DNA of 64,000 bases from Cylindrodendrum hubeiense (taxonomy: Eukaryota > Ascomycota > Sordariomycetes > Hypocreales > Nectriaceae), in contig JAANBB010000172.1 in the NCBI GenBank assembly GCA_014621425.1, positions 1-64,000 of the forward strand. Direction: 5' to 3'. This document shows positions 19,058 through 38,352 of this stretch, piece by piece. The position numbers were made by a program, and so were the translations under genes. The notes beneath the pieces were generated by a model, which saw only the letters and a list, made by a program, of their open reading frames with translations, had not been told where the DNA came from and did no database searches. Every line of letters begins with the position of its first letter. Position 1 is the stretch's first letter.

Positions 19058-19144
19058 TCGGGGCCCGAGTCGAAGTTTATGGGATCTCGAATCGAATGAA
19101 AGTTTATCGGGCCCCGAGTCGAATGGAGATATATCGGGTCCCGC
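19058..19144. promoter_or_regulatory. Three CGGGNCCCG operator-like sites
   Basis: Cores lie at 19059-19067, 19108-19116 and 19135-19143, with the outer bases TCGGGGCCCGA, TCGGGCCCCGA and TCGGGTCCCGC. Each is a CGG-N3-CCG inverted repeat, the kind bound by Zn2Cys6 dimers. They sit between the divergent aldehyde dehydrogenase and DUF2306-like genes, closer to the former. The first two are embedded in a longer imperfect direct repeat containing CGAGTCGAA and GTTTAT. Confidence 0.7.
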
Positions 19145-19663
19145 AGGAACTTGTAAGATTGATTCTCGGCTTCGGGGTTGTGCTCCGCACGCTAACTCCC
19201 ATACGCGACACGAGACGGTGTCCTCTGCAGGGTAAATCTATGGACTCGCTCGTAAAGTATTCGTAATCCCCGCAAAATTTCGTGATTTCGTTAGGCTCCA
19301 AAAGACCACGGCCATCGGACAGTGACATCATCAACCGAGATGGGGTATGAGACTCCCGTATTCGGACGCATACGTAATTCGAAGCCCCCAGGATAAGTTA
19401 AGGTTTACAATGCCAATGTCGGATGTAGCGGAGCCGCTTGAAGGCATCGGCCAATATTTTGATCTTTAAAAACTACGTGCAGGCTCACATTCCATCGATT
19501 TGAGAACTCCAAAGCTAACTTATATCTTCTGCAACATCGCTTACTCTTCCACCATCCCGACCAAGGCGAAGGCTTTGCAACAACAGCAACAACGCCAAGT
19601 AAGACGATCGTCTTGATTTCTCCATCTTCTCCAACACCCAAACGCAGATACAGCATTCAACAA

Positions 19664-20386
19664 ATGTCTCTTCACGAGATAGACCCAATTGGCACGGCTC
19701 CAACTGTCCCACAAAAGGATACCTATACTTTTCCTACTCTTTCGACTGACAGGGAAAGCTCTGTTAGCAAAACAGGCACAGCACGTGGGCCTAGTGGTTT
19801 GTGGTGGCTCATGGCTGTTCCCTCTTTTGTGATTGCTGGCTATTCTCTATTCTTTTTCACCGGAATGTCCCCTGGCGATCCGGAAATCAAAAACAGGATC
19901 CTCAATTCCACCGGTGGAATCGTGCATATCTCAGGCGCCCTGCTCACACTTGCCGTCGGCCCATTTCAGTTTCTCGACAGCCTTCGACGAGACCGTCCCG
20001 ACGTTCATCGATGGGTCGGTCGGGTTTGTGCTCTCGGGAACACGATTGGCGGCACGGCTGCCTTCTGGGTATCGTTTCAGAGCTCAACCCATTCTTGGGG
20101 AACAGCCGGCTTTGCAACCCTGGCCTCGTGTTGGCTTTGGACACTTGGCCAAGGCATGCGCACTATTTGGGCCAAGGACGTGTCGGGACATCGAGCCTGG
20201 ATGACGAGAAACTTCTCTCTTTCGTATGCCGCTGTGATGCTCCGCTGGCAGCTTCCGCTGTTGATAGTGTTGGGGTGCAGCAGTGTTATGGCCCTTAGCA
20301 TTACGGGGCTTACGTCTTGGGTACCTAATCTCATCTTCGCCGAGTATCGGATGAGAAGGAAGGTGTTGAAGTCGGCTATTGAGTGA
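19664..20386 (+). CDS. DUF2306-like multispanning membrane protein
   Basis: A single exon of 240 residues; the ATG at 19664 is the first good start. After a soluble head of about 60 residues there are several hydrophobic spans: WWLMAVPSFVIAGYSLFFF, a histidine-bearing segment (GGIVHISGALLTLAVGPFQF), then DRPDVHRWVGRVCALGN, ATLASCWLWTLGQGMRTIW, SGHRAWMTRNFSLSYAAVM and a last span near residues 200-220. The HRW and HRAWM motifs with surrounding helices are characteristic of the DUF2306 family, for which no reaction is established. It shares an upstream region with the divergent aldehyde dehydrogenase, including three regulatory palindromes about 520-600 nt away. Confidence 0.78.
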   Translation: MSLHEIDPIGTAPTVPQKDTYTFPTLSTDRESSVSKTGTARGPSGLWWLMAVPSFVIAGYSLFFFTGMSPGDPEIKNRILNSTGGIVHISGALLTLAVGPFQFLDSLRRDRPDVHRWVGRVCALGNTIGGTAAFWVSFQSSTHSWGTAGFATLASCWLWTLGQGMRTIWAKDVSGHRAWMTRNFSLSYAAVMLRWQLPLLIVLGCSSVMALSITGLTSWVPNLIFAEYRMRRKVLKSAIE

Positions 20387-20739
20387 GGTGGGATCTAAAA
20401 GTCTCAAACGGCATAGAGAGATAGAGGTGGGGAGGAAGCGCGATGGACTAATTACGGTTTTGGAAAATAGTTGAAGCCGAAAGTTAGTAAAGAAATCAAC
20501 TGACTGGAGGCCGATTGTAGCTATTCGGATCTCGATCAAACTTGTGTTTTTAATAGCGAATTGGAATTTCAGGCTGAGGTCTCTAAAATTGATTCGATGA
20601 AAAAGTGATCCTGGTAGATTCAAACCAGTATCTTGGCAAGCAGCAAGAGACCCCTGCTGCGAATATGGAATCGTTGTTTCATAAAGAGATTCGGCTACAA
20701 GTTAAAGATCATCAAGGGGGTGGGTTTTAGTTTCAATTA
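20387..20739. other. 3' region of the DUF2306-like gene
   Basis: No gene is seen. A short hairpin-like sequence near 20605-20635 superficially resembles a tRNA T-arm, but no cloverleaf can be built around it. Confidence 0.4.
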
Positions 20740-21290
20740 GGATTCTCGTGATCTATCACACAAGATACAGGTTCGTTGTTTGAACTGTTCGATCTGGGCC
20801 AAGTCTTCGCAGAGTCCAAAGTTCCGCCAGCTCTCCAAGCGCTGCATGCATTGGCCCATCGCGAAGATGAAGACGAGAGCAAGTCTCTGAGTGTTGGGGA
20901 GCTGGAGCTTCTATGTGTAGGGAAGAGGCAGCAGCACGATGAGACCATGTGTGATGATGTTTGGGATAGAGCTTCCGTTGAAAGACTGCTTGCTGTCGAC
21001 ACTGCAATAGAACTTACCTATAGTCATGGGGCTCACGGGGTCGAAGCGTTCCCAAAAGGCGCGGGGAGGAGTGCACTGAAGGCTGGTGATGACGAGCTGC
21101 ACGTTGGGTGAATACAAGAATGCGCAGCAGGCATGTGCAGTTCCAGCAGGGGGGGCACAAAAGAAAGTCGACGTACAACTGCGATACCCCGCGCGCGCTC
21201 TGAATGGATGAGCAACTGGCTTTGAATGAGCGAACCAACTGAATACACTGGATGGTAGAGTTGGCACAGTCGTTGTTCGTAACGGCCCCA
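20740..21290 (-). pseudogene. Pth11-like (fungal rhodopsin-domain) receptor relic
   Basis: The minus strand carries the second half of a Pth11-like seven-helix protein: QCTPPRAFWERFDP, SIPNIITHGLIVLLPLPYT, then a TAG at 20913-20911, and KLQLPNTQRLALVFIFAMG in the same frame. In this family Trp is usual where the stop stands (LP-x-P-x-W-K-L), so TGG-to-TAG is the likely change. Upstream helices are recognisable only in pieces across frames. A TAG acting as a splice acceptor was considered, but no matching donor keeps frame. Confidence 0.5.
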
Positions 21291-21382
21291 CCTCCCCGCC
21301 TCCGCATTGCGATGCCCACCGGCCCCTCCCCCACCGAGGTTCGGCTATATCCCTGCAAATGCGAGGTCGTAGCGCGGGACAC

Positions 21383-22072
21383 TAATGGCCCTCGCCGTAA
21401 TTGAGTTTGTTTTAAAGCATGCTGAGTTAGTTTAAACAGTATATCAGTGTTGTTCTCACTATCTTCGGGGTTCTGTCTTAACTACTGGGTTGGTCCCCGA
21501 TTTCATCAGCGACGGAAAATGGGGGTGGGGCCGTCGCTTTGCGGCCGACAAACAATAGAATGGCTAAAGATGGGGCCTACGTATTCGGGCACCTACCTTT
21601 GAGTTTCTCATTCACGCTGGTCATCGAATCCCCTCACAAAATTGTCTCACTGTGAGGGTCAGGTGCGAGACTTTGGACCACCTGGTTGCCAAACGAATCC
21701 AATGATCCCCTATTCTTAAACAAATACGGGGGATGAGATGCTCGGTAGAGAAGCATCAAAGTTAAGCCTAGACCATGGGCTTTCTATTCAGCGAGTCTAG
21801 TGAGCACGGGCTTCCAAATCACTAGCTATCGGAAGATGGTATGGTCGGAGAGTGGAGCCGAGGAGTAAGGCGGAAGATGGGGGAGATCTCCCACATAACT
21901 CAATTCAGGAGTAAGTGGAACTAAGGTACTTAATTATCTTCGACGGATATTTAATTGATGCCAACTGAATCACATCGATCCTGATCTAAAATCAAAATTT
22001 CTTTCTTGGTTTCAGTAGATGACAATCTTAAGCGGATGAAGAACAATTTCTATCATAATTTATACAGCGGCC
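21383..22072. other. Upstream region of the scytalone-dehydratase-like gene
   Basis: No gene is supported. The interval has mixed composition and no strict copy of the cluster palindrome; only half-sites such as GGTCCCCGA occur. Confidence 0.4.
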
Positions 22073-22691
22073 ATGACGATGACTGGCAACATTAGCTTCG
22101 AAGGTCTGTAGCCAGATGGGCAAATATTACAAGAACTAGTCACTGAAATCCCAAATTGTGTAGAGTTCCAGGGTGTTCAGGCTGCTGTTTACGAGTGGGC
22201 TGAGAGTTATGATACCAAGGACTGGGCAAGGCTCCGCAAGATCCTAGCTCCAGAATTGAGAGTAGGCATTACCCCCATCCAAAATTATCATGCAACCTCT
22301 AACGCACCTGGAGATTGATTATCGCGCGATTCTCAACAAGATCTGGGAATCAATGCCGTCTGAAGAATTTATTACCATGATATCTCACCAAGATATTCTC
22401 GGTAGCCCCACACTCAAGACACAACATTTCATTGGTGCCAGTATCTACGACCGTGTATCAGACACGGAGATCATTGGGCATCACCAGATGCGGGTACCTC
22501 ATCAGAAGTATAAGCATGCTGGATCATCTGAAGTCCAGGTAAAGGGACATGCACATGGCTATAACAAGCACTGGTACAAAAAGGTCGATGGTATCTGGAA
22601 GCTCGCCGGTCTTGCACCCGAGGTTCGGTGGACCGAGTACGATTTTGAGAAGCTCGCTTCATCTGGCAGTACTCATATACTTGAAGGATAA
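22073..22691 (+). CDS. Scytalone-dehydratase-like enzyme
   Basis: Three exons (22073-22103, 22164-22261, 22314-22691) give 168 residues, close to the roughly 170 of scytalone dehydratases. Family segments line up throughout: [20 protein letters not shown] with the Tyr-Asp pair, [17 protein letters not shown] with the active-site His, [23 protein letters not shown], and GLAPEVRW. Known melanin enzymes have Ser in the GHAHSAN segment; here it is Gly followed by Tyr-Asn. The fold is an NTF2-like cone that dehydrates scytalone or vermelone in DHN-melanin synthesis. No melanin polyketide synthase or reductase is present in the window, so it may act on another hydroxylated aromatic. Intron 2 has a GTAGGC donor and a CTAAC branch site. 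Confidence 0.88.
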
Positions 22692-24269
22692 ACTGATTCT
22701 GGTCAAGAGCTTGACAAGAGATATACTCTCGATCTGAGCTAATTTGAGGCGACTTCACTAACAGATCGGTCGGTATTCTAGGAGCAGTTAAGTGGAGATG
22801 ATATGTATCCCAAAATCTATACCTTATGGAACATTATATAAATAGATAGACAAATGCTATAAAGTATGTTGATATCGTCAGTCTAGTGGCAAACTATAAC
22901 CTGAGCTTTATCAAATGTAAATATAAGCTTAATATATAGACTATGGCCATGCCACGTTATACAGTATTTTTCTTTCTCCCATGCTTTCTTCCTCCCCGCC
23001 CGCTACCCCCGGCACATTCTCTTACTTTTATTCACTTTGAATATATACTCAGTATTTAGTATATCCGGTAGTCAAAGGATTATTAGGATGGTGTATATTT
23101 ATTTTATAGAGTATAAGACTTTAATATCTAGCTGGGGTTAATATAAGTATAATTGTGTAATATCTTCTTTTTACTTAATTGATTAGACCCTATGACATAT
23201 GATTATATCTATAACTAAGAGAATCTACTTATCCTTTAATATTAAAAATACAGAGAACGTATTATTAATCTACTATAAGAAACAATATTTATTATTATAT
23301 TCATGTTATAAAAACATAATGAGTTAATTATTTAATTTATAATATTATTTTATATTATCTTGTTAATTGTAAAGTACCATATTATGCGATAGACGTGATA
23401 GATTCCGGGGAACAAAACAAGCACCCCAAATTGAGGCGATTGGCACCTGCTACCTAGTGAAAGGTGGGAAACGAGGTGTAAAGCATTACCTTTGTGAAAA
23501 AGATAAATGTTGCTCCTCATATTTCTTGACATTGGAGGATGATACGAGACATAAGGCCCCCAGTTGATCAACAGGGATGAAGTCTGGATGAAGTCTAGAT
23601 GAAGATGCTGTCCACATCCCAAGTGCGTTGAATGCCTGGGATGCTATTCTGGGACCTTTGTAAGCTCAGGTTTGGTGGACGGTCTCTGCCGCTCAATATT
23701 GAGGGCCATTCCGAATGGGTGTTTTAGTTTTCGTCTGTCTGTGGCATGAGTGGTCCAGGGCTGATTGAATCTGACACTCTAAGGTTCTGTCAGTACTCGT
23801 CGTTATGGTTTGGTTTATTAGGGTGGGTTTAGTAAGACATGAAAAATTCATATCCCCTGGCACCAACCAATAAAATCGCTCAAAGAGACGATATGTATGA
23901 TGGAAGTTTGTAAGTTTTGCGTCTGGCCGAGAGTCAGAGCTCCCTGAGGATTCTTATGCGGGTTAGAGATGTTCTTACTTCAATCCCACGCGATGTTGAA
24001 ACTATCATCTCAAGCATGTATCTACAAGAAGCACTGATTGAGAAAGAGAATTTTTTAAAATAGGTGTTCATCGTAGCCTACAGCAGAGCCATTGGCGTTT
24101 TATCTCCTTTTACAACCCTCAAAGCTATCGAGACATTGGAGGCTAAATACGACTAGAACCAACATCTATAGAGCTCCAGATTTAAACAACACAAGACCTT
24201 GACAACAGATCATGTATTGCATCGAACGTCGACACCCATTCAAATTAATCAAAGGTTTTCCGTGGGCTT
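22692..24269. other. Long spacer, strongly AT-rich in the middle
   Basis: About 1.6 kb without a supported gene. From about 23080 to 23380 the DNA is dominated by TA-rich words, as in RIP-mutated fungal repeats, but no transposon protein can be read. The right part (23600-24250) has average composition and no recognisable frame. Confidence 0.5.
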
Positions 24270-26077
24270 CTAAAAATCCGAATTGGAAGGCCAAATGCCC
24301 GATTTACCTGGCGAGAGAATACCGTGCGGGTCTGTCGCATCTTTGATCAGAGTTGTGTATTTGCGCAGTGCGTGGCCGTTGAAATCCAATTGCGCCGCGA
24401 CGTCGTCCATAAAATCAAGATGAGTGCGATACTCTGTGTAGCCATGTTTGGCGGCCAAGTCAAACAGCTTGCGGAATGTCTGACGGACTTTGTGGGCTTG
24501 ACCGGGCAGGAAATTGATCAACGAGATGGCGTACACAAAACGCTCGGTAATGTGGATGTCGCCAAAGTTGTTGGCATCTTCCTCATCTAGGATAGTCTCG
24601 GCTTCCAAGTAGTAGCTGTTTAACTCCTTTGCTCCAGGAGGCAGGATGGGTGAGAAGGTGACGTGACCTCGTCCCGATCCATCTCCGAAAAATCGCCTGA
24701 GGGTCTTCATTGTGGGCACGCCCGATTGTGGAATCTCATGCTCAGGCATCACTGACGCTTTCAAGGCCTCGCCAGCGACTCCAGGCCACGAATTGAAAGT
24801 GATCTTTGCACCAGGAATTGTCGAGATAGCACGGTTGACAGATGCGAGCTGTGCTGGCACTACCTCAGTCGTCCCGAAGAGTGCGAAGAAGGCTAGCCAG
24901 TGGCCCCATCCCTGCTCAACTCGAATTTCTTCCTTCAGCTTCTTGGGTAGAGCCCGTGCTTGGAGCACGAAGGGCAGAACCCGTTTTAAGACCTTGGGGT
25001 CCTCGCTTCTCAAGCACTGGCGGTAGATGTCCGTGATAGACGGAGCATTGCCAATGATTCTTTGGCGATAGAGGTCTGAAAGAATAACCGTCAAGGGGCC
25101 AAGATCTTCTCGCTTATAGACGCTGACCTCACAGGTCGTGAAAGCTTCTGGTGCTGGGCATAGGTGCACACCAATTTTCGTAACCACACCTAGGTTGTAA
25201 GGTTAAAATTTGCGCATGGTTCACCGTCTCGTAGCCTTAGAGGGATGGCTCACCAAGGTTTGATTGGAAGAAAAGTCCATCAATGGATGGTCCAAAACCA
25301 CTAGGTGCAACATTAGTGTAATGAAATATCATGGGTTGTAATACGCAAGTCCGTACCCTTTGTGGAGGGGCCAGAGCTTGCTATCGCTCATCGCGCCCAT
25401 GCCAGATCTTATGATCTCTCCAGTAGGAGTGACTACCTCCAGGCCACACTGGTTTTGGGAATGTTCGCCATTTACACCGTGTCCATATCCACGGTCAAGG
25501 CTATTTCCTAAGACTGAGCCCCAGCCTATTCCCGGAGCCGACATCCATAGCTTGAGACCACGTTCTTGAATCGCATCGTACAGTTCAAGGAATGACACGC
25601 CGGGTTCAAGGATTGCATACGCATACTTCTCGCTGAGCTCGATGATTTTGCTCATCCGATGCAGGTCTAGAATGATACTGCCATCAACAAGAGGCGAAGA
25701 CCCACAGTAACTATGAGGTTGAAACTCTGTTAACTCGGATTATCTTTGCAGAAGATAGAACCCCACGAAGAAGTGACAACTCACCCAAGGTTCTTGCCCC
25801 TCGATAAAGTCCAGAGGGGAATCCTGAATTGATTGGCAGCCTTCAGCACGGCTGAGACTTGCTGTGGGCTGTTTGGCCTGACGGCACCGTTTGCGGTTCG
25901 CACGTGGCCTGTAGCAAAGGGGTCGATGTAGGCATGATCGCCATTCAAACCCTCCAAGGCGCCAGTCGTATTGTCTCTCGACACGTTTGCCTTTCCAAGA
26001 ATACCCTCAACATGCTCAAAGAAATTATGCAGAGTAGCTTCTGTTACGCCTCGGGGCAAGACACGTTTCGAGGCCAT
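24270..26077 (-). CDS. Vanillyl-alcohol-oxidase-family FAD enzyme
   Basis: Exons 26077-25785, 25710-25357, 25300-25254 and 25189-24270 give 537 residues, near the 560 of fungal vanillyl-alcohol oxidase. The start ATG encodes MASKRVLPRGVTE. FAD-binding segments are present: NGAVRPNSPQQVSAVL, LWTLSRGKNLGY, GSIILDLHRM, EPGVSFLELY, GWGSVLGNSLDRG and GFGPSIDGLFFQSNLG. The C-terminal EYRTHLDFMDD matches the Tyr-Arg pair that binds the phenolate in the family. Two features differ from the classic enzyme as I remember it: the His carrying covalent FAD is replaced within ITERFVYAISLINF, and the PDLGGGS segment with the catalytic Asp reads PGIGWGS. FAD is therefore probably non-covalent and chemistry may differ. 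Substrates should be para-substituted phenols. Three regulatory palindromes lie 260-490 nt upstream. Confidence 0.88.
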
Positions 26078-26336
26078 GGTTAATCTGCCAAAAGGTGCGT
26101 CCAAATCAAGCGAGTCTAGATCGTTGGGTTGGAGTAGTCGCGGTGAACCTTTGGAGTCCAACTTTATGATCGTTAGAATCAGTCCATTGCCATATATCAT
26201 TTTATAGCATCGGAAACTGCCCAAGTGGTCGCTTGTTTCACTCCGCCTTACTGGCAATGTAGGGATTGGGATGCCAATACGGAACCCCTGACCCCAGGAG
26301 CTAGTCATAGGCTAGTGGCATGACACTGCCGAATCG

Positions 26337-26347
26337 TCGGGGCCCGT
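26337..26347. promoter_or_regulatory. CGGGNCCCG site upstream of the VAO-family gene
   Basis: The site reads TCGGGGCCCGT, core 26338-26346, 260 nt upstream of the VAO-family ATG. A second half-site (TCGGGG) follows directly. Confidence 0.65.
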
Positions 26348-26516
26348 CGGGGCAGAGGATGGCTGAGGCAACCCTCGGGGAGCCATGTATCGCGACTCCT
26401 CGCCACCGGCATTCCGGCTACACCCATATGCCCTCGGAGGCCGTTTACGATTTTCTGTCTCGTTGATGAGATATCTTCACTCTACAGCCAGCACCGAGAC
26501 ATGGGTGCTCCGCACT

Positions 26517-26566
26517 GCGGGCCCCGACGGTGAGATCTGAAGCTTATGTGGAACTGCGGGACCCGA
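26517..26566. promoter_or_regulatory. Two CGGGNCCCG sites between divergent genes
   Basis: GCGGGCCCCGA and GCGGGACCCGA have cores at 26518-26526 and 26557-26565, 39 nt apart. They lie between the VAO-family gene (-) and the esterase gene (+) and could serve either. Confidence 0.68.
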
Positions 26567-27241
26567 GGCGGTAGGTCACCCGACGGAGCTCGGAGCCAGT
26601 TTGCCATAGCTTCTCATCCTCCTGGGGTTGCCTTTCTTGAAGTGCCATTATACCCATTTTAATCTCTTGAGAATGGTAGTATCTTTTCGACTGCCATTCG
26701 AGTCGAAGCAAGCAGGTAACCAGCTCTCGAGGCAGACGAATGGCTTACTAGCGTTGCCAATCGAAGGAATATTAAACTCTCTTCCTTGTTCATTATTTAT
26801 ACTGCAAACATAAAATAAGGATCAATTGCTACTATTGAGCCTCCATTCCGATATCGAGCTGTATTGTAAGTTGACTGGCGTTTCTTGGCCAATCTAAAAC
26901 CTGATCTCCAGAGGGAGATTCTAGTTAGGCTTTCATCATCTCCGACGCTCCATCATCATTGTTGAGCACGAAATCTGTAGCTCAAGCTACTCGATCCAAA
27001 ACCCCCCATAATAATAAAGGGAATTCCCACTATCATTCCTCTTTCTCTATTGCGCTTCCTCACCTAGCAATAACAAGCTCATCCAATGCATCCAAACCGT
27101 CTAGGCCTTTGACTATCTAGGTTAGGGTGAATTTGATGCAATTATCAACGCTTAAGAGACAGATGGCGTTCCAATGGCCCGAGTTCTGGTCGGTGACGAT
27201 ATAAACCGATCGAGCCCACAGGTCGCGTCCGGTTCTGCCAT

Positions 27242-27284
27242 TCGGGCCCCGATGACAACAGGCCCCCATAACAACGGGTCCCGA
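27242..27284. promoter_or_regulatory. Two CGGGNCCCG sites upstream of the esterase
   Basis: TCGGGCCCCGA and ACGGGTCCCGA have cores at 27243-27251 and 27275-27283, 32 nt apart. They lie about 210-250 nt before the esterase ATG, the same spacing seen at the other cluster promoters. Confidence 0.7.
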
Positions 27285-27493
27285 AGGCAAAACGTGTTGT
27301 AATAAGCAGAGCCTCTTATGTTCGCATCAAAGGTAGTTGTTAGACCCACAAGGCGCCAATTTCAAAAGTTCGATAGTATTCAGTTATGGTCATTAATACA
27401 GACCTTTGATCTGAGGTTTGCTTAAAGGGAAGCTGTATGTAGCTCCGTATCCCTAGAGATCACCTCATTTCTATTCAGGAGTTCCAATTGGCT

Positions 27494-28636
27494 ATGGCAA
27501 AAGGAATGACACATCATGAATTTGTTTTCAAACATGACTATCGAGGTCAACCGATTAAAGCGGATGTTTACTTTTCTCAAGGAGCCCAAGAGGCCACTTC
27601 CAGACCGGCCGGTGTGTCCTCCATATCGCAGAGACAAAATCCCATCCTCCATAATTTTATGTCTGTAGCTTATAACCAATGCTGATGAAACTGGGGTTAG
27701 CAATAATGTTCCATGGCGGTGGCTTCGTCATTGGGGCCAAGGAAAAGATCCCACAACAACATATAAAAATGCTTCTCGAACTTGGGTTCATCGTTGTGGT
27801 ACCAAACTATCGCCTAGCACCTACAATTTCGATGTACGAAGGGCCCGTTCAGGACTCAAAAGATGCATATACTTGGTGCCAGACCGATTTGTCAAAACTC
27901 CTCCCAATCGGATTGTCAGTTGACTCGCAGCGAATGGTTGCTGTCGGTTACTCTGCCGGTGCGACGCTTGCTTTACTATTGGTATGTTCAATATTGAAGC
28001 GGACATGTTCTTACCAATAAGGAATGACTTGAGTTCGTACTGTCACTATCAGAAAGGTACTAAGCAACTTTGATCATGTTCTAGGCTTCTATGCAGACAA
28101 AACCTCGTGCCATCCTGGACTTCTATGGCGCTCTTAACTTTTCCGACAAATTCTGGCATTCCCCCTTACCAAGTCCAGCAGCCCTTCCACCATTTCCTCC
28201 TGGACTTTTAGCCAAAGTGTTTGAGGAGGAGGATCCAAGCTCTGTTCCTTCGTCGTTAGAACGGCCACCGCTAGGTTCTAATGCAACACCAACGCTAGAC
28301 CTCTCCAGACCCCGCAATGCATGGCTTTTTAATGCTATGAAGGAAGGCCACCATCTTCGTAGCGTGGTGGGTGACGGGGATTATGCTAGAGTTGACCCCA
28401 TATCAGTCTTCTCTGAAGAGTTCCCACCGACAGTTTTTATCCATGGAAACCAGGATACATTGGTAGAGTTCCGATTTAGCAAAAACGCGTATGAGACTTT
28501 GCAGAAGCTCGGAGTGGAGACCCAACTTTTAGAAATCGAGGGCAAAGATCATGGCTTTGACGAGGGGATCGAGGAGGGTATGGAAGATTGGGATAAGATC
28601 CAAACGGGGCTGGAGCTTCTTGCAAATCATGTCTGA
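27494..28636 (+). CDS. HSL-type alpha/beta-hydrolase (esterase)
   Basis: Exons 27494-27611, 27701-27981 and 28085-28636 give 316 residues, a usual length for the hormone-sensitive-lipase-like family (alpha/beta-hydrolase fold 3). The oxyanion-hole motif HGGGFVIG spans the exon 1/2 joint. The nucleophile elbow is GYSAG, the acid is in GNQDTLVEF, and the His is in GKDHGFDEG. There is no signal peptide, so it is probably cytosolic. It would hydrolyse a small ester or lactone. In this setting a product of the Baeyer-Villiger-type monooxygenase nearby is one candidate. Two regulatory palindromes lie in its promoter. No lesion is seen. Confidence 0.9.
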
Positions 28637-29024
28637 GAATATGCGATAACATGTTCACCTGTTTAATTGGGCTCTACGTTTATACCTGTCTCTCTTCTCA
28701 CTATTCTGTGCATTGTTGGATGGCCAGGCGTACTTCTAATTACCTCCCGGCTGTTGATTAGGAGTGGGACTGCTTCGCTAGGGTGCGCGTCAGAGGGCGA
28801 AGTATCAGCCGCCATGGTTGGCTCAATATGTGGAACAGGTTAAAATCTTATTGCGAGTTACTACTAGCAATATTCGCCTTCGAAGATGAGCTTGACTCGA
28901 GTTTTATCCTTCCCAAGTGGAGTAATAACACTGGCAGTATTCAGATGCATGGGTATGTTGTCTCGATCGCCGTCATTCGGGGACCGGAAGCGGTCAAATG
29001 TGTTAGTGACGGCCGGGCCCCGAT
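28637..29024. other. Interval before the second-exon-rich NTF2-like gene
   Basis: No convincing N-terminal exon for the following NTF2-like gene was found, although a possible donor (GGGTATGTTG) lies near 28952. The cluster palindrome at 29013-29023 falls at its right end. Confidence 0.35.
29013..29023. promoter_or_regulatory. CGGGNCCCG site at the NTF2-like gene
   Basis: CCGGGCCCCGA, core 29014-29022, ends two bases before the first ATG of the NTF2-like frame. Elsewhere in the cluster these sites are 140-490 nt from the start, so the gene start here may be misplaced or the 5' end rearranged. An imperfect relative (TCGGGGACCGG) lies at about 28977. Confidence 0.6.
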
Positions 29025-29512
29025 ATGGTGGTCACAAACTTACCGATTTATCCACTCCTCATACAAGGGCGCCAGGCAGCGCACGACTTTTTCCAAGAAC
29101 AGCGAAAAAGTATCGGTCAAGAGATAGCCATTCAGCAATTGATTGTCGATGAAACTGGAATTGCAGTTCGCTGCCAGGTGCAATTCACTGCTCATGTCGA
29201 TTTAACCCAGGTATATAGAGAGAGACAGAAATAGGCCATCGCATTTTCTTCGTGGACTAACGTAATTATCAGGGCTATTTCAGAATGCCTCCCGTGAAGA
29301 AAGGTCAAGGATACAACTTGGCGTATGCGATTTTTGAAGTATCAATCAAGATGGGAAATTATCTGAGATTTGTGCATTCAGGCAGGGACTACCTACCGTC
29401 CGGGAAGCATAAAGACCGAATGAGCTGTCACAATAGAGCCCAAATATCCCCCTATTTAGCTGTTACCAAAACCATGGCCTCGTCGGAAATTGAGCATATA
29501 AATTGGAAGTAA
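29025..29512 (+). CDS. NTF2/SnoaL-like protein, possibly 5'-truncated
   Basis: Two segments, 29025-29210 and about 29273-29512, join across an intron with a GTATAT donor, a CTAAC branch site and a TTATCAG acceptor. The product has about 140 residues: LPIYPLLIQGRQAAHDFF, GIAVRCQVQFTAHVDLTQ, then GYFRMPPVKKGQGYNLAY. The FTAHVDLT strand and the following loop correspond to FTARTAEF and its surroundings in the NTF2-like protein at 37809-38352, so the two are probably related. The N-terminal helices seen in that relative are not recognisable here, and an in-frame TGA precedes the ATG. Either the first exon is unrecognised or the gene is truncated. The family includes isomerases, dehydratases and binding proteins. 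Confidence 0.55.
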
Positions 29513-29719
29513 AGCATCTTTCCAGTGTCAGTCCTAGTATCCCATTTTTTGCAAACATGAAACGGCCCGAACCCAGGATAATTTATTGAGCCACATAGTT
29601 AAGTGTGGCAACCAAAGTGGGCGGTCATGTCGGCCAAAGACTATATTTGACTGATTTTCCATATGAAACCACCAGTATGAATGGCTTTGTTGGACACGGC
29701 GGGATAAAATTGATGATAT

Positions 29720-32112
29720 TTATAGATGAGCCGCATCTAAAGTTGAGTTATCCAGCCATTGAAAGTCGGCCACCTGAAACATATCCAGCAAGGCTTGGCC
29801 AGGCTGTATATCGTCAAAGTGGGACCACGCGCCGTCATGGTCCTTGCTGCTGCATTGTATTATTAGATTTGATTACAGTAAATTGCATAGATGATTAACA
29901 TACCCGCTAGCATCCTTTAATTTCGTAGACAGCGCCTCGATTGATTGTCTCCCGAATTTGCCAATGCCAATGTGATCTGCTAGTGAGAGAAGGGGTATAT
30001 ACTGATCTAGCTCGATGATGACCTCAGGAGACTGATTCTTAAGACATCGAAGAAAGAGGATTATGCCGTTGGTGAGAATGTGGAATGCATCAAAAAAGCT
30101 CATTTGACTGATGAGGTTCTGCTTCACCAGATCTTTCAGTATGATGATAGCCTCGCGGTTGGCCTCTTCGCAAATTTCAACCCTTCGTGCAAAGTTATCA
30201 TCAACAAAACGCATGTTGATGGTCGATTGTAGAAGATAGGGCTGTGTGACAAGTAGTAGAATGTAGTAGTGGCGCAAAGCAAGGAACGCAATTGCCCGTA
30301 TATACGATGGTGCCGTGGGACATCCTGGTTTGAGGTAAAGAGGCAAAGCATTCCACCACTGCCGAAGCCTGTGCATCAGTTTCTCGGCCAGGATGTCAAA
30401 TTCTGGCCCACTACATGGACGCAAGTATAGGTCTCGGACGATTTCGCTATGTAGTAGCGCTAGCTCTGCCGAGGCCTTTGCATATCCTGGTGGAGTGAAG
30501 ACATTTTGATCGAATTCCTAGCCCAAAGTCAGCAACTGAGACTTGGTAAAAATAATAGATAAGGAGATTACTAAATCCTTGGGGACTGAAGTGTAGACCA
30601 ACTCTTTATCCACACTCTGTGGTCTACCCAGTGTGGAACAAAGCATTGTATCGAGTTCAAAAAGAGACCACCAAAGCCTCTTTCTGTTTTCAACAGTAAG
30701 ACTAGAGTCGATTTCCCACACCGACTCGTGCAAATGTAAGCCGAGTGATTGAGCTATACGGATTGCGTTTCCGAGTGAAATCCAGGCCACGTTTCTCTGC
30801 CCTTTTACTATGTACCCAAAGACCTACAGAAAGCTGAGATTAGCCCATAGTTCCCCACAGCGGAAAACCTTGCATTACCATTATCATAATAGCTTGGACG
30901 CTTTCCAGGCTTGCTTCTTCCACTGAGGCATTGCAATATCGAGTAGCATCGGCAAATAGCCGTGGATCAGAGGTGCCAAGAAATGCGATTCCATATATGG
31001 TGGCAAGTAATGCATTCGATGCCGTAGCACCTGTGGCATACAAGTCTTGGAGTTGAGCCCGAAAACCTGCATAATTTAGGACATAGATGGTACTATTCAT
31101 CTCGGAAAAGAACTTCTGTGCTGCTTCAGTAACTAGGGACAGCGATGGCAGATCAGCAGGTGTGATGGATGGATTGCACTGCCCATCCAAAGGATATTCA
31201 TCAATGGAGGGTTGGGTATCGAAGAGTCGGCTATGCGTCGATGATTGTATCGAAGAATGGATCATGGAGAAGAATGTTGTGTAGCTCGATTTGTTGTAGT
31301 ATCCTATGTGTGATGAGTTGTAACCTTTGAGGGATCAGAAAACACGCATACATACGTGGAACCTGTGTCGCATCCCGCAGCATAAGATTCCCACAGTCAG
31401 CAACCGAGTTAGGAGTTAACGTTTGTGGCGGGGATAATAGAGCATCCCGACCGCCGGCATAGGGCGCTTGATCCGAAGTGTTGCTATCAGAGGGGATGTC
31501 CATGCAAGCATCGTCACCTTGCAGGGGATGGCCGCCAACAACAAACGCATCTGCGCTTCCTTCCAATGCGACAGATGGTCCTTGGGGACAGTCTTTAGGC
31601 GAAGCAAGCGGGTGAGAATTATCAGGTTGCGAGTAGCCTGGAGAATGCTGCGACGTGTCCGCCACGGGAGGTCCGGCAGGGGCGGCTGCTGGATCCTCGG
31701 ATCTTGGAGAGGCCTCTCGGATGTTCGGAGCCAGTGGGTCTCCTTCGACGTTGGTTAAAGGCGGCGTGGCTTGGTTTTCAAGCTGAAGGACTGCATTTCG
31801 AAGCTCGTCCTTTTCAAGAGACACATCCGGGAGAAAATGGTGAACAATAGTTGACATCAACTCGAATTGTTCTTTTGTGGTTTGGTAATACGGTCTCGAT
31901 AACCTCTTCCGGGTCGCGACACATTGTGCCCCTGTGTGCAGACATCTCTGGCAGGCTGATTGGTCTCGTCGGATACACTTGAGTTTAGGCGTCATTAGTG
32001 ACAAGAGATTTTTTTTATGCAAAAACCATGAGGATACCTTGAGTTTTCTTGTCCGGCAGTTGTCACAGCTCGCTGCAGATCGTGCGCTGGATGATAGCGA
32101 TGCCATGGTCAT
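29720..32112 (-). CDS. Zn2Cys6 transcription factor, candidate cluster regulator
   Basis: Six exons (32112-32038, 31977-31352, 31230-30879, 30823-30572, 30517-29904, 29849-29720) total 682 residues in frame. The zinc cluster CDNCRTRKLKC / CQRCLHTGAQC is completed by splicing out intron 1. A Pro/Ser-rich linker follows. Then comes the fungal_trans middle-homology region with GNAIRIAQSLGLHLHE, ENRKRLWWSLFELDTML and LRHYYILLLV. The last exon (ending FQWLDNSTLDAAHL) was recovered past a GTATGT donor. Such factors usually bind paired CGG triplets. The repeated CGG-N3-CCG palindromes in nearby promoters are fitting targets, but the link is inferred. No strict palindrome lies in its own promoter; a looser ACGGCCCCGGT occurs at 32537. 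Confidence 0.9.
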
Positions 32113-32693
32113 TTGGGGGAGGCTGAGTAGACTATTTTGTCCAGGGAACACGGCTTAGCCCCTTTTATGGGCGTTTGTCCGAAGTTGCCCGATCTGGTTA
32201 AGGCTGCTTCACCCCGGTTGAGCGGAGAAGCGGGGCAGGAGGAAACAGGTCGGAAACTTACATCGGCATTTAGTGACGCGGCAATGCGGAGGCAGATGCT
32301 TGGAGGGCCGTCTGTTAATATATCATTCATTATCACTGGAGGGAGATAGGTCCTGTAGAGACCTCGAGGTTATATACTAGCAGCTTATCCGTACATTCTA
32401 GATGGATGAATGTTGCCATGGACACGGATGATGGATGGACATTGCATTCAAGAGCCACCTACCCTACAGTTCCCCAAATCGGTGACGTCAGCGGTCAAGT
32501 AACTGACTAAGCGGCTTTAAGAAACCCGGTCCTCATACGGCCCCGGTGCAGGTATGAGGACCCTAGGACCCTAACACAATGGTTTGCTTGTTGCGAGCCG
32601 ATTAGTCACCCAGCCCCTGGAGTATTGGAGCATTTGCATTTCAAATATTCAAAGCGCTAACTTAGTGCTCAGCCATCTGTCCTGTAATTGCTG
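32113..32693. other. Promoter region of the Zn2Cys6 gene
   Basis: No gene is seen. This interval lies upstream of the regulator and downstream of the carotenoid-oxygenase gene. It contains a CGG-rich patch at 32525-32550 that resembles, but does not match, the cluster palindrome. Confidence 0.45.
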
Positions 32694-34328
32694 CTAATTG
32701 CTGTGTCCGTTGCTCAGCTGCCAGGGCAAAGGCTTTTGCGCTGGAAGAGCCGGCTTGATTTTGCCACTCTCTCGGGCTTTCTTGAACATGTCAATCTCCC
32801 GCTGATCCACCCAGTTTCCATGAAATCCGAGCTTGAACTTGAGGGGCAATTTGATGATAGCGACGGGCCCCGCATTGAGTTTCTGGGCGTCGAATATACC
32901 AATGTCATTTCTCAGCTCGTCCAACCTGTTCATCAATGCCATGAGATATCCATGACCCTCGGGCGCATCGTCTGATTCCGGGATGAAGACGGGTTCTTGG
33001 AACGTCGTGCATGGCCCATCGAAGTATTCGTCCAACTCGCCCGTCTCCCAGTTGTAGTGTGTCAGTACGTTGAAGAGGCCGCCAGCCGGGGATCCACACC
33101 TGGCCACATCGTATGGCCTGGTTGGATCGACCTGAAGCGTCCACAACTGGCTGTACTTCTTTCCATTGTAGCGCTCGTCAATCCGCGAGAACTCGGATGA
33201 GAAGGGACATTTCTGGGCGGGCTCGACCCACTCGCCAGACCGCAGCGTCTTGGGGTCGAATATCCATCTCGTCACCGGCGAGTAAATCTTGTTGCGATGG
33301 GCGACCTTTCCGGGTTCCGCATCTTCAGGTGGGAAGAAGAAGAATACATTTCCATTCGCCACACCGGCGTCAAAAATGATTTTTCCGTCTTCCTCGTACG
33401 CCCCAGCTACGTGGCCATGGAATGCTGTCGTCGACCGTACCCAGATGGCGTCCTCTCGCTTGCCACCATGCCGGGGAAAAATGCCATACATCTGATCTTC
33501 ATTTGGGTCCCATGCCCAGTGGTTGCCACCCTTTTGAATCCGGTCCAGGCTGGCTTTGAGCGGCGACATTGCCAGCACCACATAGTTTTCCGTTATTCCA
33601 CAGTCATGAATGAGCCCGCAGTACGGTGCCGTGTACCATGCCTCCTCACGCTTCACACCATCTGGTCCGATGGTATAAATCACAACTTCCTTAGATGCGT
33701 CATTTCCATCTCCACCTGCTTCATACCCAAAACAGATCAGTTCTCCTGTCGTTGCATCCACCTTGGGGTGGGCAGTGAAGGTAGGGGACAACACTTGGCC
33801 GTCAAAGTCGTACCGGCCTATGGTTGCCAAAGTATCTGGGTCAAGGGCAAATGGTGGGCCATCCTCCTTCAGTGCGAGGAGAACGCCCCTCCAAAAGAAG
33901 ACATTCGTGTTTGCTGCTGTTCGGATCAAGCCCTTGACAGTAGGATGGTCGGTGTAAGGGTTTCGATATTTGCCAAAGAGATTCTTGCGGGCGTCTTTTT
34001 CAACCTTGTAGCGATCCGTCTCGACGTAGCGCTGTTTCCAATCCACGCATCCATCAGAAATGCGGAACGCACCAACAATGCCGTCTCCATTGAAGTGGAT
34101 GTCACTTTCAAACTTGGGTGCGTATTTGTGGTCAGACTGGATGCGATAGAATGTGCCCTCAACCGCCTTGGGGATGGTACCTTCGACTTCAAGGTCTTCA
34201 ATATCGCCTTGAATTCTGGAGGGTCGATTGAAACCAGAAAACGGCTCCGTGTTTGGAAAGAGGCTCTGGTTGGTAGCTTTTATCCCATTGACATAAACTG
34301 GTTGCTGAGCAAGGATGCGAGAAGCCAT
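32694..34328 (-). CDS. Stilbene-cleaving-type carotenoid oxygenase
   Basis: An intact single exon of 544 residues. The family is a seven-bladed propeller with non-haem Fe(II) held by four His. Candidates are His187 (FTAHPKVD), His241 (GLIHDCGI), His304 or His306 (AFHGHVAGAYEEDG) and His503 (LGFHGNW). Tyr121 in GKYRNPYTD and Lys154 in LALKEDGPP sit 33 residues apart, like the Tyr and Lys that hold the 4-hydroxyl group in characterised lignostilbene/resveratrol dioxygenases. GGNHWAWD is another shared segment. The expected reaction is oxidative cleavage of the central C=C of a hydroxystilbene or related phenylpropanoid to two aldehydes. No transit or signal peptide is apparent. Two regulatory palindromes lie 177-257 nt upstream. 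True carotenoid cleavage is the main alternative. Confidence 0.9.
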   Translation of the reverse strand: MASRILAQQPVYVNGIKATNQSLFPNTEPFSGFNRPSRIQGDIEDLEVEGTIPKAVEGTFYRIQSDHKYAPKFESDIHFNGDGIVGAFRISDGCVDWKQRYVETDRYKVEKDARKNLFGKYRNPYTDHPTVKGLIRTAANTNVFFWRGVLLALKEDGPPFALDPDTLATIGRYDFDGQVLSPTFTAHPKVDATTGELICFGYEAGGDGNDASKEVVIYTIGPDGVKREEAWYTAPYCGLIHDCGITENYVVLAMSPLKASLDRIQKGGNHWAWDPNEDQMYGIFPRHGGKREDAIWVRSTTAFHGHVAGAYEEDGKIIFDAGVANGNVFFFFPPEDAEPGKVAHRNKIYSPVTRWIFDPKTLRSGEWVEPAQKCPFSSEFSRIDERYNGKKYSQLWTLQVDPTRPYDVARCGSPAGGLFNVLTHYNWETGELDEYFDGPCTTFQEPVFIPESDDAPEGHGYLMALMNRLDELRNDIGIFDAQKLNAGPVAIIKLPLKFKLGFHGNWVDQREIDMFKKARESGKIKPALPAQKPLPWQLSNGHSN

Positions 34329-34504
34329 GATGTAGTATCGCTACGTGCTGAGAAGAGAGTTGCTAGAGTACTAGAGTAGACTTATTCTTGGTTTGATTGA
34401 GAAGCAAAAAGGGAAATCAACATGCCAGTGCCTGCAACTAAATATCTTAGCATTGTAACTCTCAATATTCAATATGTCTACTGTCTTCTTGGCATGTTGC
34501 AAAC

Positions 34505-34585
34505 CCGGGTCCCGCCAGAGTCGACCGGGCTCGGCAAAATAGCAATTCACTGAAAGAATCCCCGGACCCAAAGGTCGGGCCCCGA
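34505..34585. promoter_or_regulatory. Two CGGGNCCCG sites upstream of the carotenoid oxygenase
   Basis: CCGGGTCCCGC and TCGGGCCCCGA have cores at 34506-34514 and 34576-34584, 70 nt apart, and lie upstream of the ATG at 34328. A half-site (CCCCGGACCC) lies between them. Confidence 0.7.
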
Positions 34586-35151
34586 GAGTTGGGTCAATTC
34601 TTGGCCAATCGGCCCCATACCTGTCCCATGACGGCACCCTGATTAATGAGTGTTGGTATTCTCATAAACAAGTTCACACGTTAATCCCTCCAGTAACCTC
34701 CATAGGAACTGGAGCACATAGTAAATCATAACTTAAATACAAATATAGGCACTATAATCACTCACGCACACAGTAACAGCCCTCCAGTCTCGGGTACGGA
34801 CAAGTCGTACAAGAACCAAAAACATATCTCCAAAATTTCTCAGTTAAAGAACCCGTCACAGGCAGAATTACCTCTTATTTCGCCGCCTCGAAGACCGCAG
34901 CCGTCGCAGTGCAGACTCCCCTTACACTCTCCCCTTGAGCACATCTTCTTTCTTTTCCTCGTATCCTCGTACATGGGAAAATGTAGGCGCACGCAGGCAA
35001 ACCGATATTTAACGTGTCCGAACTCAGAAACCAAACACGGAAATTCTGTTTATTACGTTGGAGCGGTTTTTACTTGAATAGAAAATCATAAAATATAGAT
35101 GGCATGATAGGACTATCAGCCAAAATTGAAATTGCCTTGTTAATTATCGCC
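34586..35151. other. Intergenic region
   Basis: No gene is supported between the carotenoid-oxygenase promoter and the 3' end of the monooxygenase gene. Confidence 0.45.
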
Positions 35152-37434
35152 TCATAGTAAAGGAGTTCCATCTAGTTCAGCTCGGATTTGCAACGCGATG
35201 AATCTAGAGAAATATCTGGCCTGCCCACAAGTCCCTCCATGAAGCCAAAGGTGAGGATCTATGTCTAGTTAGCTCACTATACGAAGCAGGCCCTGAGAAA
35301 AGGCAAATGAAAGAACTTACGCCCTGAGGGTCTGAATGCGCCCTTAATTTCCCCCTCATGATCAACGCCCCAGAAGTCCTCGACACGGCTTGCCACGTCC
35401 TCACCAAAGAAGTCCTGCACCGATTGTCTCATGTTCCCAACGAATCCAGTCGCATAAACAATCAGATTAGCTTCTATCTGTGAACCGTCGTTAAAAACCA
35501 CCCCTTGGTCATAATATTTAGCAATAGAAGCATCGGATTTAACCTTGATCTATGAAATTGTTAGCCGTGAAGCGAGGCTTATTCGTCAAAGTGTGTCCCG
35601 ACACGGTGCGAACGGAATTAGATGACACACCAGGCCGTTTGAAATCTTTGCTGAAGCGCCCACATCCATGTAGTGGCCTCCAAATCTCTCATAAAGTTGG
35701 TAAATGATGTCCCCGTAACGGATGAGTTTGAAACCGGCCTGTTCTAGTCTGTCAAAACGTTCAGGGTCTGACTTTACCATCCCGTTCAAGACGCCTTTGC
35801 TTATAAGCCGGTTCACGCCAATTGGATTTGTGTACGATAACATATCTGCAAGTTTAGTTTCCACACTGGCATTGTACAACTCTATAAAGCGAGATTAGTT
35901 AGAATATTTAACGTTCATCTGAACAATATCCCATGGCAGAAACGCACTATCCAGGATGATTTTGTAGTACTCGGCAGGAAGAACATCTGAGTAAAATGCG
36001 TCAACATGTCACGTTTTCATGGCGGGGTCGTAGCTCACATGTAGGTGAGCGTTGAATCATCGTCACCGAACTCAGCCCAGCCGTAAGCATATCCTCAGCA
36101 ACATCATGGCCTTGAGAAAGCCAATGTTAGAGCTCGATACCATCAGAACAAACAGAGGGGATGCTTGCCTGTGTTTGCTGTACCGACGACAATGCCTTTC
36201 TCCCCATTCCAGGCTTCTGCAGAATGATATTCGCCTGAATGTAGAATTTTGCCGCGAAAGAGTTCCTGTAATTAGATTAGAGGATGAGCCAGAATCAATA
36301 AATGACGTGCTAGTTTACTTACTGAACCCGGATATTTGGGCATCACTGGTATTTGGCATCCGGCACCAACTGCCATCACGACATGGGTAGCCGTGATCTC
36401 CAGATCTTGCCCTTCCTTGCGTACTTTCAATCTCCATAACCCTTCTTCACCTTGCCACTGGCCTGATTGTAGTGTGGAATTGAGCCAGACATTCTAAAAT
36501 AGTTGATAAGCATCTGCTTACTCTCTATGGACAAGCTCTCTTACAATGTCGTACTTGTTCACCCACTCCTTGTATCCTTTGGACAGGTCATCTTTGGTTA
36601 GGAACTCACGATATGAGTGGGGGAATGTTCGATCAAACGGTAGATGCGCTTTGCATGTTAGTGTAGCCATGATAAATTCCCAGAGAGCTCCATACACGAT
36701 TCTCGAGTCGTATGTACTATGGGGTCAATATGGTTAGCCAAATGAACAGATCAAGGGTCTGGGAAGGGACTACATTTAGTGGATTTGTATCTCAAACTCC
36801 AGTTGTCGCCAATGGCTTTGTTCTTTTCCAATACGACATATGACACACCAAGTGCTGCCAGCCTTCCGGCGACGCTGAGTCCAGCTTGTCCGGCACCGAT
36901 GATTGCGCAGTCAAGGCGGGTGTCATTTCCTTGCTGTCCATTGATCGAGCCATTCAATTCGGTAGCATTCGTACCCAAGTCCTTATGATCCACGTTTGGA
37001 TGACCATGGAGTTGATCAAGAACGGTTCTAATGACCCAAATCTTCCACTCGCCCTTGATGTATGTGAGTGACAGAATCGCAACGCAATCTCTCCTAGGTG
37101 TTGCGTCGGCTTGGAATGTATAGACACCTTCCACCCAAGATGATTCAGTGCCGACTTTGACACTTCGTCCGGAACCAGGTTGATACTTGAAGTGACCTAC
37201 GGCTGACTTGCGGGTCAAGTTCACCCACTGATTGAAGCAGGCTTCGGCGCCGTAGAATGTTCTGGCTGAGCCTGTTAAGGCAAAAAGGTCGCGCCAAACA
37301 ACATCCTCGGCCAGAATTGGCGTATCCAGAGACGCCAATTTTGACGCGAATCCGTTTGCGACATTTTCAGTATCTGAATTACCAGGGACCAAGCCCGTTG
37401 GTAGAGCACACGGGAGCTTCGCTAGGCTTGACAT
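35152..37434 (-). CDS. Flavin monooxygenase with N-terminal NTF2-like domain
   Basis: A multi-exon gene. Clear exons are 37434-36774, 36648-36545, 36493-36323, 36265-36169 and 36110-36039, then further exons from 35986 down to the stop at 35154-35152. Residues about 30-145 form an NTF2/SnoaL-like domain (VVWRDLFALTGSARTFYG ... WKIWVIRTVLDQL). The FAD site IIGAGQAGLSVAGRL begins near residue 178, followed by the NADPH-site VVGTANTGHDVAED and the FATGY-type motif IVYATGFVGNM. The C-terminus reads PHLWLHGG, CGQARYFSRFIALQI. This is a group B flavoprotein monooxygenase, which may perform N/S-oxygenation, decarboxylation or Baeyer-Villiger oxidation. One intron (36168-36111) uses a GC donor, CAG|GCAAGC. 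The exon joint near 35880-35935 is unresolved. Two regulatory palindromes lie upstream. Confidence 0.85.
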
Positions 37435-37618
37435 GGTGTCGTTTTCGCTTTGGCTCGTTAACGGCAGGAAGTATTCGAAGATTCAGGACAAAATAAGAGT
37501 ACCCGACCAGAAAGGAAATGAAGATGAATTTTGTCTCGTTTCTAGATAATTCCTTGTCGGACTTGATTGCTTCCCTGATGGACTTGTCATTTGGTTCTCG
37601 ATGACGGGTTCCGCTGGT

Positions 37619-37670
37619 TCGGGACCCGAGTTCTGTCGAGCAGGTCTCCACTAAACATCACGGGGCCCGG
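37619..37670. promoter_or_regulatory. Two CGGGNCCCG sites in a bidirectional promoter
   Basis: TCGGGACCCGA and ACGGGGCCCGG have cores at 37620-37628 and 37661-37669, 41 nt apart, between the monooxygenase (ATG 37434, -) and the NTF2-like gene (ATG 37809, +). A mismatched third copy (GACGGGTTCCG) lies at about 37603. The placement suits control of both genes. Confidence 0.72.
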
Positions 37671-37808: not shown

Positions 37809-38352
37809 ATGCCTACATCTGGTTCTGATGCCCGGTCTTTCCAGACAATTCAAGACGTGCATAACTATATTAACGCATTCAACATCGATGACTTCGATAC
37901 CTATACACAATACTACCATCCTGAGATATACGTAAGTAAAACAGTGCCAGTATACTGCAATGGACCCAAGGGCTTTTATGATATATACTTGTGCTCGCTC
38001 TCATAATAAAAGCTCATACATATTACAGATGAATATTAAGACATTGCCTGGCGAAAAGACTCTAAAAGGATATTTGGATTGGATTAAGCCTCTCCATAGC
38101 CGCTATGTCGAAAAACTGGTCCCGAAGAAGCTTATTATTGATCGCGACGGAAAATATATCGTCGGGGAGTTTCATACTGAGTTCACTGCGAGGACAGCAG
38201 AATTTCGGTCTGATAACTTCCTGGGGAAATGGGGTCTTATTAATGAGAAAAAAGGTCCTGTTATTAAAATGATTGTGTTTTACTATCTAGATGATGTGGG
38301 GAAGATTACTCAACTCGAGCCAGAGTCGACACTACTTAGAGTAGCAGTTTAA
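37809..38352 (+). CDS. NTF2/SnoaL-like protein
   Basis: Two exons, 37809-37931 and 38029-38352, give 148 residues, typical for a single NTF2-like cone domain. The first helices read FQTIQDVHNYINAFNIDDF and YYHPEIY; after the intron come TLKGYLDWIKPL, LIIDRDGKYIVGEFHTEFT and FYYLDDVGKITQLEPE. No catalytic residues can be assigned. Members act as small-molecule isomerases, cyclases or dehydratases, or bind polar aromatic compounds. It is divergent from the monooxygenase and shares two palindromes with it. It resembles the shorter NTF2-like frame at 29025-29512. Confidence 0.82.

Follow-up and report, generated by a model that had tools for sequence, protein, structure and literature searches.

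A strict CGG-N3-CCG palindrome in the promoters of a putative aromatic-catabolism cluster of Cylindrodendrum hubeiense, and its predicted Zn2Cys6 reader

Introduction

Why should one exact palindrome recur fourteen times within 18.6 kb of a fungal genome, and which protein would read it? The question is raised by the first 64,000 nucleotides of contig JAANBB010000172.1 of Cylindrodendrum hubeiense (Nectriaceae; this whole stretch is hereafter the window, and is the start of contig C82 in our numbering), where CGGGNCCCG, a strict form of the inverted repeat CGG-N3-CCG, is gathered around oxidoreductase-like genes and a gene for a Zn2Cys6 transcription factor. The original prediction, made from the letters of this DNA, had proposed that the copies mark a regulon. 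From their number, shape and placement, and from comparing the factor with its relatives elsewhere in this genome, we consider it highly probable that the Zn2Cys6 factor encoded within the cluster (29720-32106) is the reader of these palindromes.

Results

Enrichment of the palindrome

The window holds 14 exact copies of CGGGNCCCG, every one of them within 19059-37669. Genome-wide (47,533,381 bases in 798 contigs) there are 562 copies, a frequency from which 0.22 would be expected in the 18.6-kb interval, against the 14 seen (Poisson P for at least 14, ~6e-21). This genome-wide frequency had been set beforehand as the check that might refute the clustering, and the clustering withstood it. Dinucleotide shuffles of the window (n = 100) gave a mean of 0.38 copies and a maximum of 3, and among all 256 palindromes of the form XXXX-N-X'X'X'X' counted in the window, CGGG reached 14 and any other at most 5. 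Shuffles, whole-genome count and same-form palindromes together rule out chance or base composition as the origin of the copies. The rest of the contig (64001-77040, ~13 kb) contained no exact CGGGNCCCG. All 13 positions originally listed are exact, and the window outside 19059-37669 is indeed free of strict copies. The accompanying claim of 13 copies confined to promoter intervals stands for those 13, with the correction that a fourteenth (32864-32872) had been overlooked, which lies within the coding sequence of a dioxygenase-like gene.

Shape of the motif

Across the five site-bearing intervals of the cluster (3,449 bp), there are 16 instances of CGG-Nx-CCG with x = 3 and 0-1 with every other x from 0 to 15; these intervals were chosen because they bear sites, with the other spacings serving as the control. 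The core is nearly all-or-none (14 exact vs. only 7 one-mismatch copies in 64 kb), the inner G and C being almost fixed. On the flanks, T stands on the left in 7 of the 14 copies, A on the right in 9 and both in 5; counted by half-site, the outer T/A is found in 16 of 28, which is above background (P 5e-4) and not fixed. Since both sides are present in just five copies, we read the outer T/A as a preference only; the earlier statement that most copies carry TCGGGNCCCGA was thus too strong, and a fixed TCGGGNCCCGA of the AflR- or GliZ-like kind is rejected as the full site rule. Genome-wide, the extended form has 43 copies (5 in the window, 38 outside), and a search of the window that allowed it two mismatches returned 29 matches vs. 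a shuffle mean of 20.7, a number reached by 6 of 100 shuffles, i.e., a diluted signal. As an observation apart, the reversed letters of CGGGNCCCG occur 1214 times in the genome vs. 562 for the palindrome itself, which is about half as frequent, and CGG-N3-CCG is likewise rarer genome-wide than its letters reversed (11,728 vs. 21,131).

Placement and pairing of the sites

Gene models came from a simple splice-scoring program, not from an annotation, and families from Pfam. Thirteen of the 14 sites lie outside the modelled gene spans, though these cover 62.5% of 17270-39377 (P ~3e-5), and sites are found upstream of seven genes, namely those for the aldehyde-dehydrogenase-like (ALDH), DUF2306, vanillyl-alcohol-oxidase-like (VAO), alpha/beta hydrolase, lignostilbene-dioxygenase-like, flavin-monooxygenase-like (FMO) and SnoaL-like proteins (Table 1). 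The nearest start codon is 144-484 nt away for 12 of the 14 (the exceptions being 29014 and 32864), in good agreement with the range of 140-490 nt first proposed for most copies.

The copies also tend to be paired, as had been claimed. A genome search for two copies of CGGGNCCCG at a gap of 11-41 nt gave nine rows, five of them in the window, and a gap of 42-72 nt gave two, both in the window, and one of these two consists of the first and last members of the triple at 19059-19143. For the combined gap of 11-72 nt, 7 of the 11 genome rows therefore fall in the window, and the four others are on contigs C13, C84, C141 and C323. Start-to-start distances of paired sites range from 27 to 70, with no regularity of helical phasing when judged by eye. 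Also among the genome places listed is one on C22 with two sites 97 apart, where motif counts were scanned.

The Zn2Cys6 factor of the cluster

A Zn2Cys6 gene had been noted inside the marked region, and the protein modelled at 29720-32106 bears this out, with matches to PF00172 (26 bits, cut-off 21) and PF04082 (72 bits, cut-off 23). An in-frame intron of 60 nt was removed from the model by hand, which is supported by the same residue order in a relative (P0001). In a protein search with 22 matches, the factor was 79% identical to a protein of Dactylonectria estremocensis. The locus thus has a Zn2Cys6 factor encoded within the cluster and, in the cluster promoters, an excess over the genome of inverted CGG repeats at one fixed spacing, two marks of a Zn2Cys6 cluster-specific regulon. 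An AflR-type regulator, for which we assume a TCG-N5-CGA site and an AflR-type domain to be diagnostic, does not fit the locus: that site matches 5 of the 14 copies, and the Pfam matches (E up to 0.001) comprise only Zn_clus and Fungal_trans.

Paralogs of the factor and their promoters

A genome search with the whole factor returned 48 matches, of which the C13 paralog ranked first (exons 39-47% identical) and the C667 paralog second (32-42%), whereas the zinc-cluster and linker region alone matched only four loci: the window, C13 (54%), C667 (48%) and C57 (37%). On C13, three copies of CGGGNCCCG (contig positions 245740, 245944 and 245986) lie between a DUF3533 gene and the paralog start at 246305, i.e., 3 in a divergent promoter of 773 bp vs. 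0.009 expected (P 1.3e-7). A fourth copy at 249090 (L002:1090-1109) is situated beyond the modelled end of the paralog (248665), with CGGAGCCCG two bases later. C13 was first reached through the listing of sites and its paralog recognised only afterwards; the probability of one of the four pair rows outside the window lying no more than 2 kb from the closest paralog by chance is ~3e-4. The three remaining rows were set aside, those on C141 and C323 as array-like, with copies spaced by 18 bp and, in overlapping frames, by 30 bp, respectively, and that on C84 as its locus holds no member of the factor family. In the C141 stretch (L037:4473-4517), which is probably a short repeat, ACGGGTCCCGA occurs three times at 18-bp intervals, close to a frame that by eye resembles an aldo-keto reductase.

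Around the second paralog, on C667, the 20 kb scanned contained no CGGGNCCCG. One 10-kb stretch there holds eight CGG-N3-CCG sites vs. 2.5 expected from the 11,728 in the genome (P 0.004), with other spacings at 0-2, and seven of these eight are located in three promoters, all seven reading CGGTNWCCG in one orientation (sites were assigned to promoters by reading the sequence, after they had been seen). The next 6 kb upstream have no such site and the next 10 kb downstream have one. Two copies of CGGTNNCCG 30-60 nt apart occur at 13 places in the genome, two of them in the C667 neighbourhood, 4.8 kb from each other (P ~5e-6, uncorrected for the pattern having been written after seeing the C667 sites). 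Genes for an amidohydrolase, an aldehyde dehydrogenase and a P450 form a separate group beside this paralog (L033:3600-8448). In 65 kb of control DNA, from 19 loci that the factor search had matched, the x = 3 spacing showed no peak (21 vs. 9-25 for other spacings).

In a tree that took in the six best of the 22 outside protein matches, the C13 paralog groups with the window factor and its D. estremocensis relative (support 98/95), and C667 and C57 fall across a 98/99 split from the window factor and C13, with the caveats that the C13 model is mis-spliced in a short zinc-cluster stretch and that the C57 model, on a long branch, has no N-terminus. Motif likeness follows protein likeness in this tree, since C13, with the same core, groups with the factor and C667, with an altered inner base, lies across the split. 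It is thus tempting to speculate that a small Zn2Cys6 clade, whose four members in the genome include three with metabolic genes next to them, has kept the CGG-N3-CCG spacer frozen in those three and switched the inner base (G-N-C in the window and C13, T-N-W in C667), a proposal that we hold to be evenly poised between right and wrong. If true, the genome would be a natural record of a regulator family re-specialising its DNA target after duplication, each copy keeping the promoters of its own cluster in step.

Genes of the cluster

Judged from its gene families (Table 1), the cluster looks suited to the breakdown of plant-type aromatic compounds. The best PDB matches of the VAO-like protein are an unnamed oxidoreductase (8s7q, 310 bits) and p-cresol methylhydroxylase (9h40), with vanillyl-alcohol, eugenol and 4-allylsyringol oxidases among the later ones. 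By sequence, the dioxygenase-like protein is closest to a solved structure named "Lignostilbene dioxygenase" (9lp3, 695 bits; PDB), and it keeps Tyr101 and Lys134 of 5j53 (alignment positions counted by eye), residues that we take to contact the 4-hydroxyl of the substrate. For the pathway, one may reasonably guess at cleavage or oxidation of the side chain of a 4-hydroxyphenyl compound, the presumed substrate.

Several models call for comment. In the ALDH-like gene, natural splicing would leave an in-frame TAA right before an ICMS motif (17813-17929; frames read by eye), so this strain may carry a defective gene, unless the assembly is in error. The FMO-like protein has about 170 residues without a Pfam match ahead of its flavin domain, and the doubtful frame F resembles, by eye only, a small SnoaL-like gene of which just the 3' part, without the start, is present. 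A second Zn2Cys6 gene (PF00172), without palindromes, adjoins the cluster at 40073-41479.

Table 1. Modelled genes and exact palindromes of the window, and CGG-N3-CCG sites in promoters near the C667 paralog (positions on that contig).
Feature	Position	Strand	Family, matches or placement
ALDH-like gene	17270-18893	-	PF00171; three sites 170-246 nt upstream
DUF2306 membrane protein gene	19664-20386	+	PF10067; the three ALDH-promoter sites 525-601 nt upstream
Scytalone-dehydratase family gene	22073-22691	+	PF02982, 258 bits; no palindrome in 873 bp upstream
FAD oxidase gene, vanillyl-alcohol-oxidase/p-cresol-methylhydroxylase kind	24270-26077	-	PF01565, PDB matches
Alpha/beta hydrolase gene	27494-28636	+	PF20434/PF07859
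Short gene model F, doubtful	29025-29512	+	no Pfam family above cut-off
Zn2Cys6 transcription factor gene, proposed palindrome binder	29720-32106	-	PF00172, PF04082
Lignostilbene-dioxygenase-like (RPE65 family) gene	32694-34328	-	PF03055, 420 bits; PDB matches
FMO-like gene	35277-37434	-	PF00743; FMO match starts at residue 176
Small SnoaL-like protein gene	37809-38352	+	SnoaL_2, E 0.012, weak, below Pfam cut-off
NAD(P)-binding/NmrA-like protein gene	right of SnoaL-like gene	-	
Palindrome CGGGGCCCG	19059-19067		shared divergent promoter, ALDH/DUF2306
Palindrome CGGGCCCCG	19108-19116		divergent promoter, ALDH/DUF2306
Palindrome CGGGTCCCG	19135-19143		divergent promoter, ALDH/DUF2306
Palindrome CGGGGCCCG	26338-26346		265 nt upstream of VAO-like gene
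Palindrome CGGGCCCCG	26518-26526		445 nt upstream of VAO-like gene
Palindrome CGGGACCCG	26557-26565		484 nt upstream of VAO-like gene
Palindrome CGGGCCCCG	27243-27251		247 nt upstream of alpha/beta hydrolase gene
Palindrome CGGGTCCCG	27275-27283		215 nt upstream of alpha/beta hydrolase gene
Palindrome CGGGCCCCG	29014-29022		7 nt ahead of ATG of doubtful gene model F
Palindrome CGGGCCCCG	32864-32872		inside dioxygenase-like coding sequence; 762 nt upstream of ATG of Zn2Cys6 factor
Palindrome CGGGTCCCG	34506-34514		182 nt upstream of dioxygenase-like gene
Palindrome CGGGCCCCG	34576-34584		252 nt upstream of dioxygenase-like gene
Palindrome CGGGACCCG	37620-37628		divergent promoter, FMO-like/SnoaL-like
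Palindrome CGGGGCCCG	37661-37669		divergent promoter, FMO-like/SnoaL-like
C667 amidohydrolase promoter	165600, 165644		CGG-N3-CCG sites
C667 aldehyde dehydrogenase promoter	167802, 167818, 167894		CGG-N3-CCG sites
C667 P450/factor promoter	170396, 170448		CGG-N3-CCG sites

Discussion

The regulon first proposed for this locus gains support from the enrichment, from the Zn2Cys6 gene, from the three identical palindromes in the promoter of the closest paralog and from the other CGG-N3-CCG form near the next one. The same or a sister motif stands beside two of the three relatives that the in-cluster factor has in this genome, and this factor is probably the protein that reads it. Mechanistically, we infer that the factor would bind as a symmetric homodimer: one CGGG half-site would be read by each zinc cluster, and the inverted CGG triplets would be held three bases apart. 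It would occupy mostly paired sites 144-484 nt upstream of start codons and, by likeness to PglR and GliZ, may switch the aromatic-catabolism genes on together, the presumed trigger being a phenolic plant compound (4-hydroxystilbene or eugenol/isoeugenol-type).

Several observations weigh against this assignment. One of the 14 sites falls within coding sequence (the dioxygenase-like gene, 32864), and no site, even with one mismatch, was found upstream of the genes for the Zn2Cys6 factor (587 bp), the scytalone-dehydratase-like protein (873 bp) or the NmrA-like protein (623 bp). The pairs on C84, C141 and C323 stand where there is no member of the factor family. For C667, the count over the whole 10 kb reaches only P 0.004 and its three promoters were picked post hoc; moreover, a count of eight is attained at another spacing in three other 10-kb stretches (L034 at x = 15, L035 at x = 2, L037 at x = 11), so that the x = 3 peak of C667 is not decisive by itself and the weight of this case comes from x = 3 having been fixed beforehand and from the sites lying in promoter pairs. 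Finally, around C57, the most distant relative (37% identical over the zinc-cluster region), 10 kb of DNA contained neither a CGG-N3-CCG nor a prominent count at any other spacing, which leaves three of the four family members fitting.

Might the palindromes then be genuine operators of another protein, such as the Zn2Cys6 protein encoded at 40073-41479 or a genome-wide regulator, while the in-cluster factor uses other sequences? The presence of that second Zn_clus gene, the lack of an exact site in the factor's own promoter and the 548 of 562 copies located elsewhere in the genome would all suit such a reader. However, the same palindrome in the promoter of the closest paralog and the same spacing at the next paralog would not be expected if another protein read the sites, and no exact site occurs past 37669 in the window, so that none adjoins the gene at 40073; we give this alternative a slight chance. 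An origin of the copies as by-products of a dispersed repeat, of local duplication or of chance in GC-rich DNA appears far more remote, indeed extremely improbable. AGTCGAA is found in the flanks of both 19059 and 19108 (by eye), and this pair may accordingly stem from a local duplication, and the C141 and C323 pairs look like short tandem repeats; yet the flanks of the remaining copies are unlike one another (by eye), shuffles yield no more than 3 copies, GC content in the window is only 40-55% (2-kb steps) and any other palindrome of this form has at most 5 copies.

A different kind of alternative leaves the binding of the factor in place and changes its effect: the factor could mainly repress until an inducer is present, or need a second factor. 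The sequence data fit activation and repression alike, but the CGG-N3-CCG cluster factors described in two papers act positively (PglR, PMC4872168; gliZ, PMC4006717), an analogy by which repression would be the less expected outcome, with a small though real chance.

If the in-cluster factor is the reader, spacers of 2 or 4 and the variant CGGTNACCG are expected to be bound much more weakly than CGGGNCCCG; if the paralog series is read correctly as well, the C13 protein should prefer CGGGNCCCG and the C667 protein CGGTNWCCG. Such a reading would link a particular regulator gene with the strict site of a catabolic cluster that combines the stilbene-dioxygenase and vanillyl-oxidase types, and so pathway membership would become readable from DNA and the inducer searchable with a reporter. 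The paralog pattern, with the spacer kept and the inner base changed, would also make this single regulon a test of how zinc-cluster specificity evolves.

Relation to known systems

Comparisons with published systems are limited here to excerpts of the papers cited. In Fusarium, CGG-N3-CCG was predicted for PglR of the PGL1 perithecial pigment cluster, with 9 copies at 1.9 per kb vs. a background of 0.10 per kb, and over-expression of PglR raised six genes of its cluster (PMC4872168). As here, a cluster-encoded regulator is discussed as Zn2Cys6 and CGG-N3-CCG is over-represented in cluster promoters; the PglR cluster, in contrast, concerns polyketide pigment biosynthesis and a plain CGG-N3-CCG, whereas ours would be catabolic and has the strict CGGGNCCCG. 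For GliZ, TCGGN3CCGA has been proposed to precede all gli genes but gliZ and gliA, and gliotoxin is lost on gliZ deletion (PMC4006717); eight sir genes are reported to carry this motif upstream as well (SirZ, sirodesmin; PMC8191991), and DcGliZ bound three of seven gli promoters by gel shift (PMC7022936). As far as these excerpts go, gliZ and the window factor gene share the absence of a site upstream. Their clusters differ from ours in making epipolythiodioxopiperazines (gliotoxin, sirodesmin), and their site differs in its fixed outer T and A, which flank both sides in only 5 of our 14 copies, the inner G-N-C being what is fixed here.

In terms of gene content, the literature recognises fungal degradative clusters in which a stilbene dioxygenase (SDO) or a vanillyl alcohol oxidase serves as the anchor (PMC10735191); the excerpts make no mention of binding motifs. 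Genes resembling both anchors are present at this locus, side by side with other oxidoreductases; relative to the class as excerpted, the difference is that the two share one cluster. The cluster is a candidate degrader of a plant phenolic. The literature searched prints neither CGGGNCCCG nor six spelled-out forms of it (other spellings were not tried). Within these excerpts, the wider CGG-N3-CCG type is already in print, having been proposed for PglR, GliZ and SirZ, and it is the strict core, together with the paralog series, that distinguishes the system of the window.

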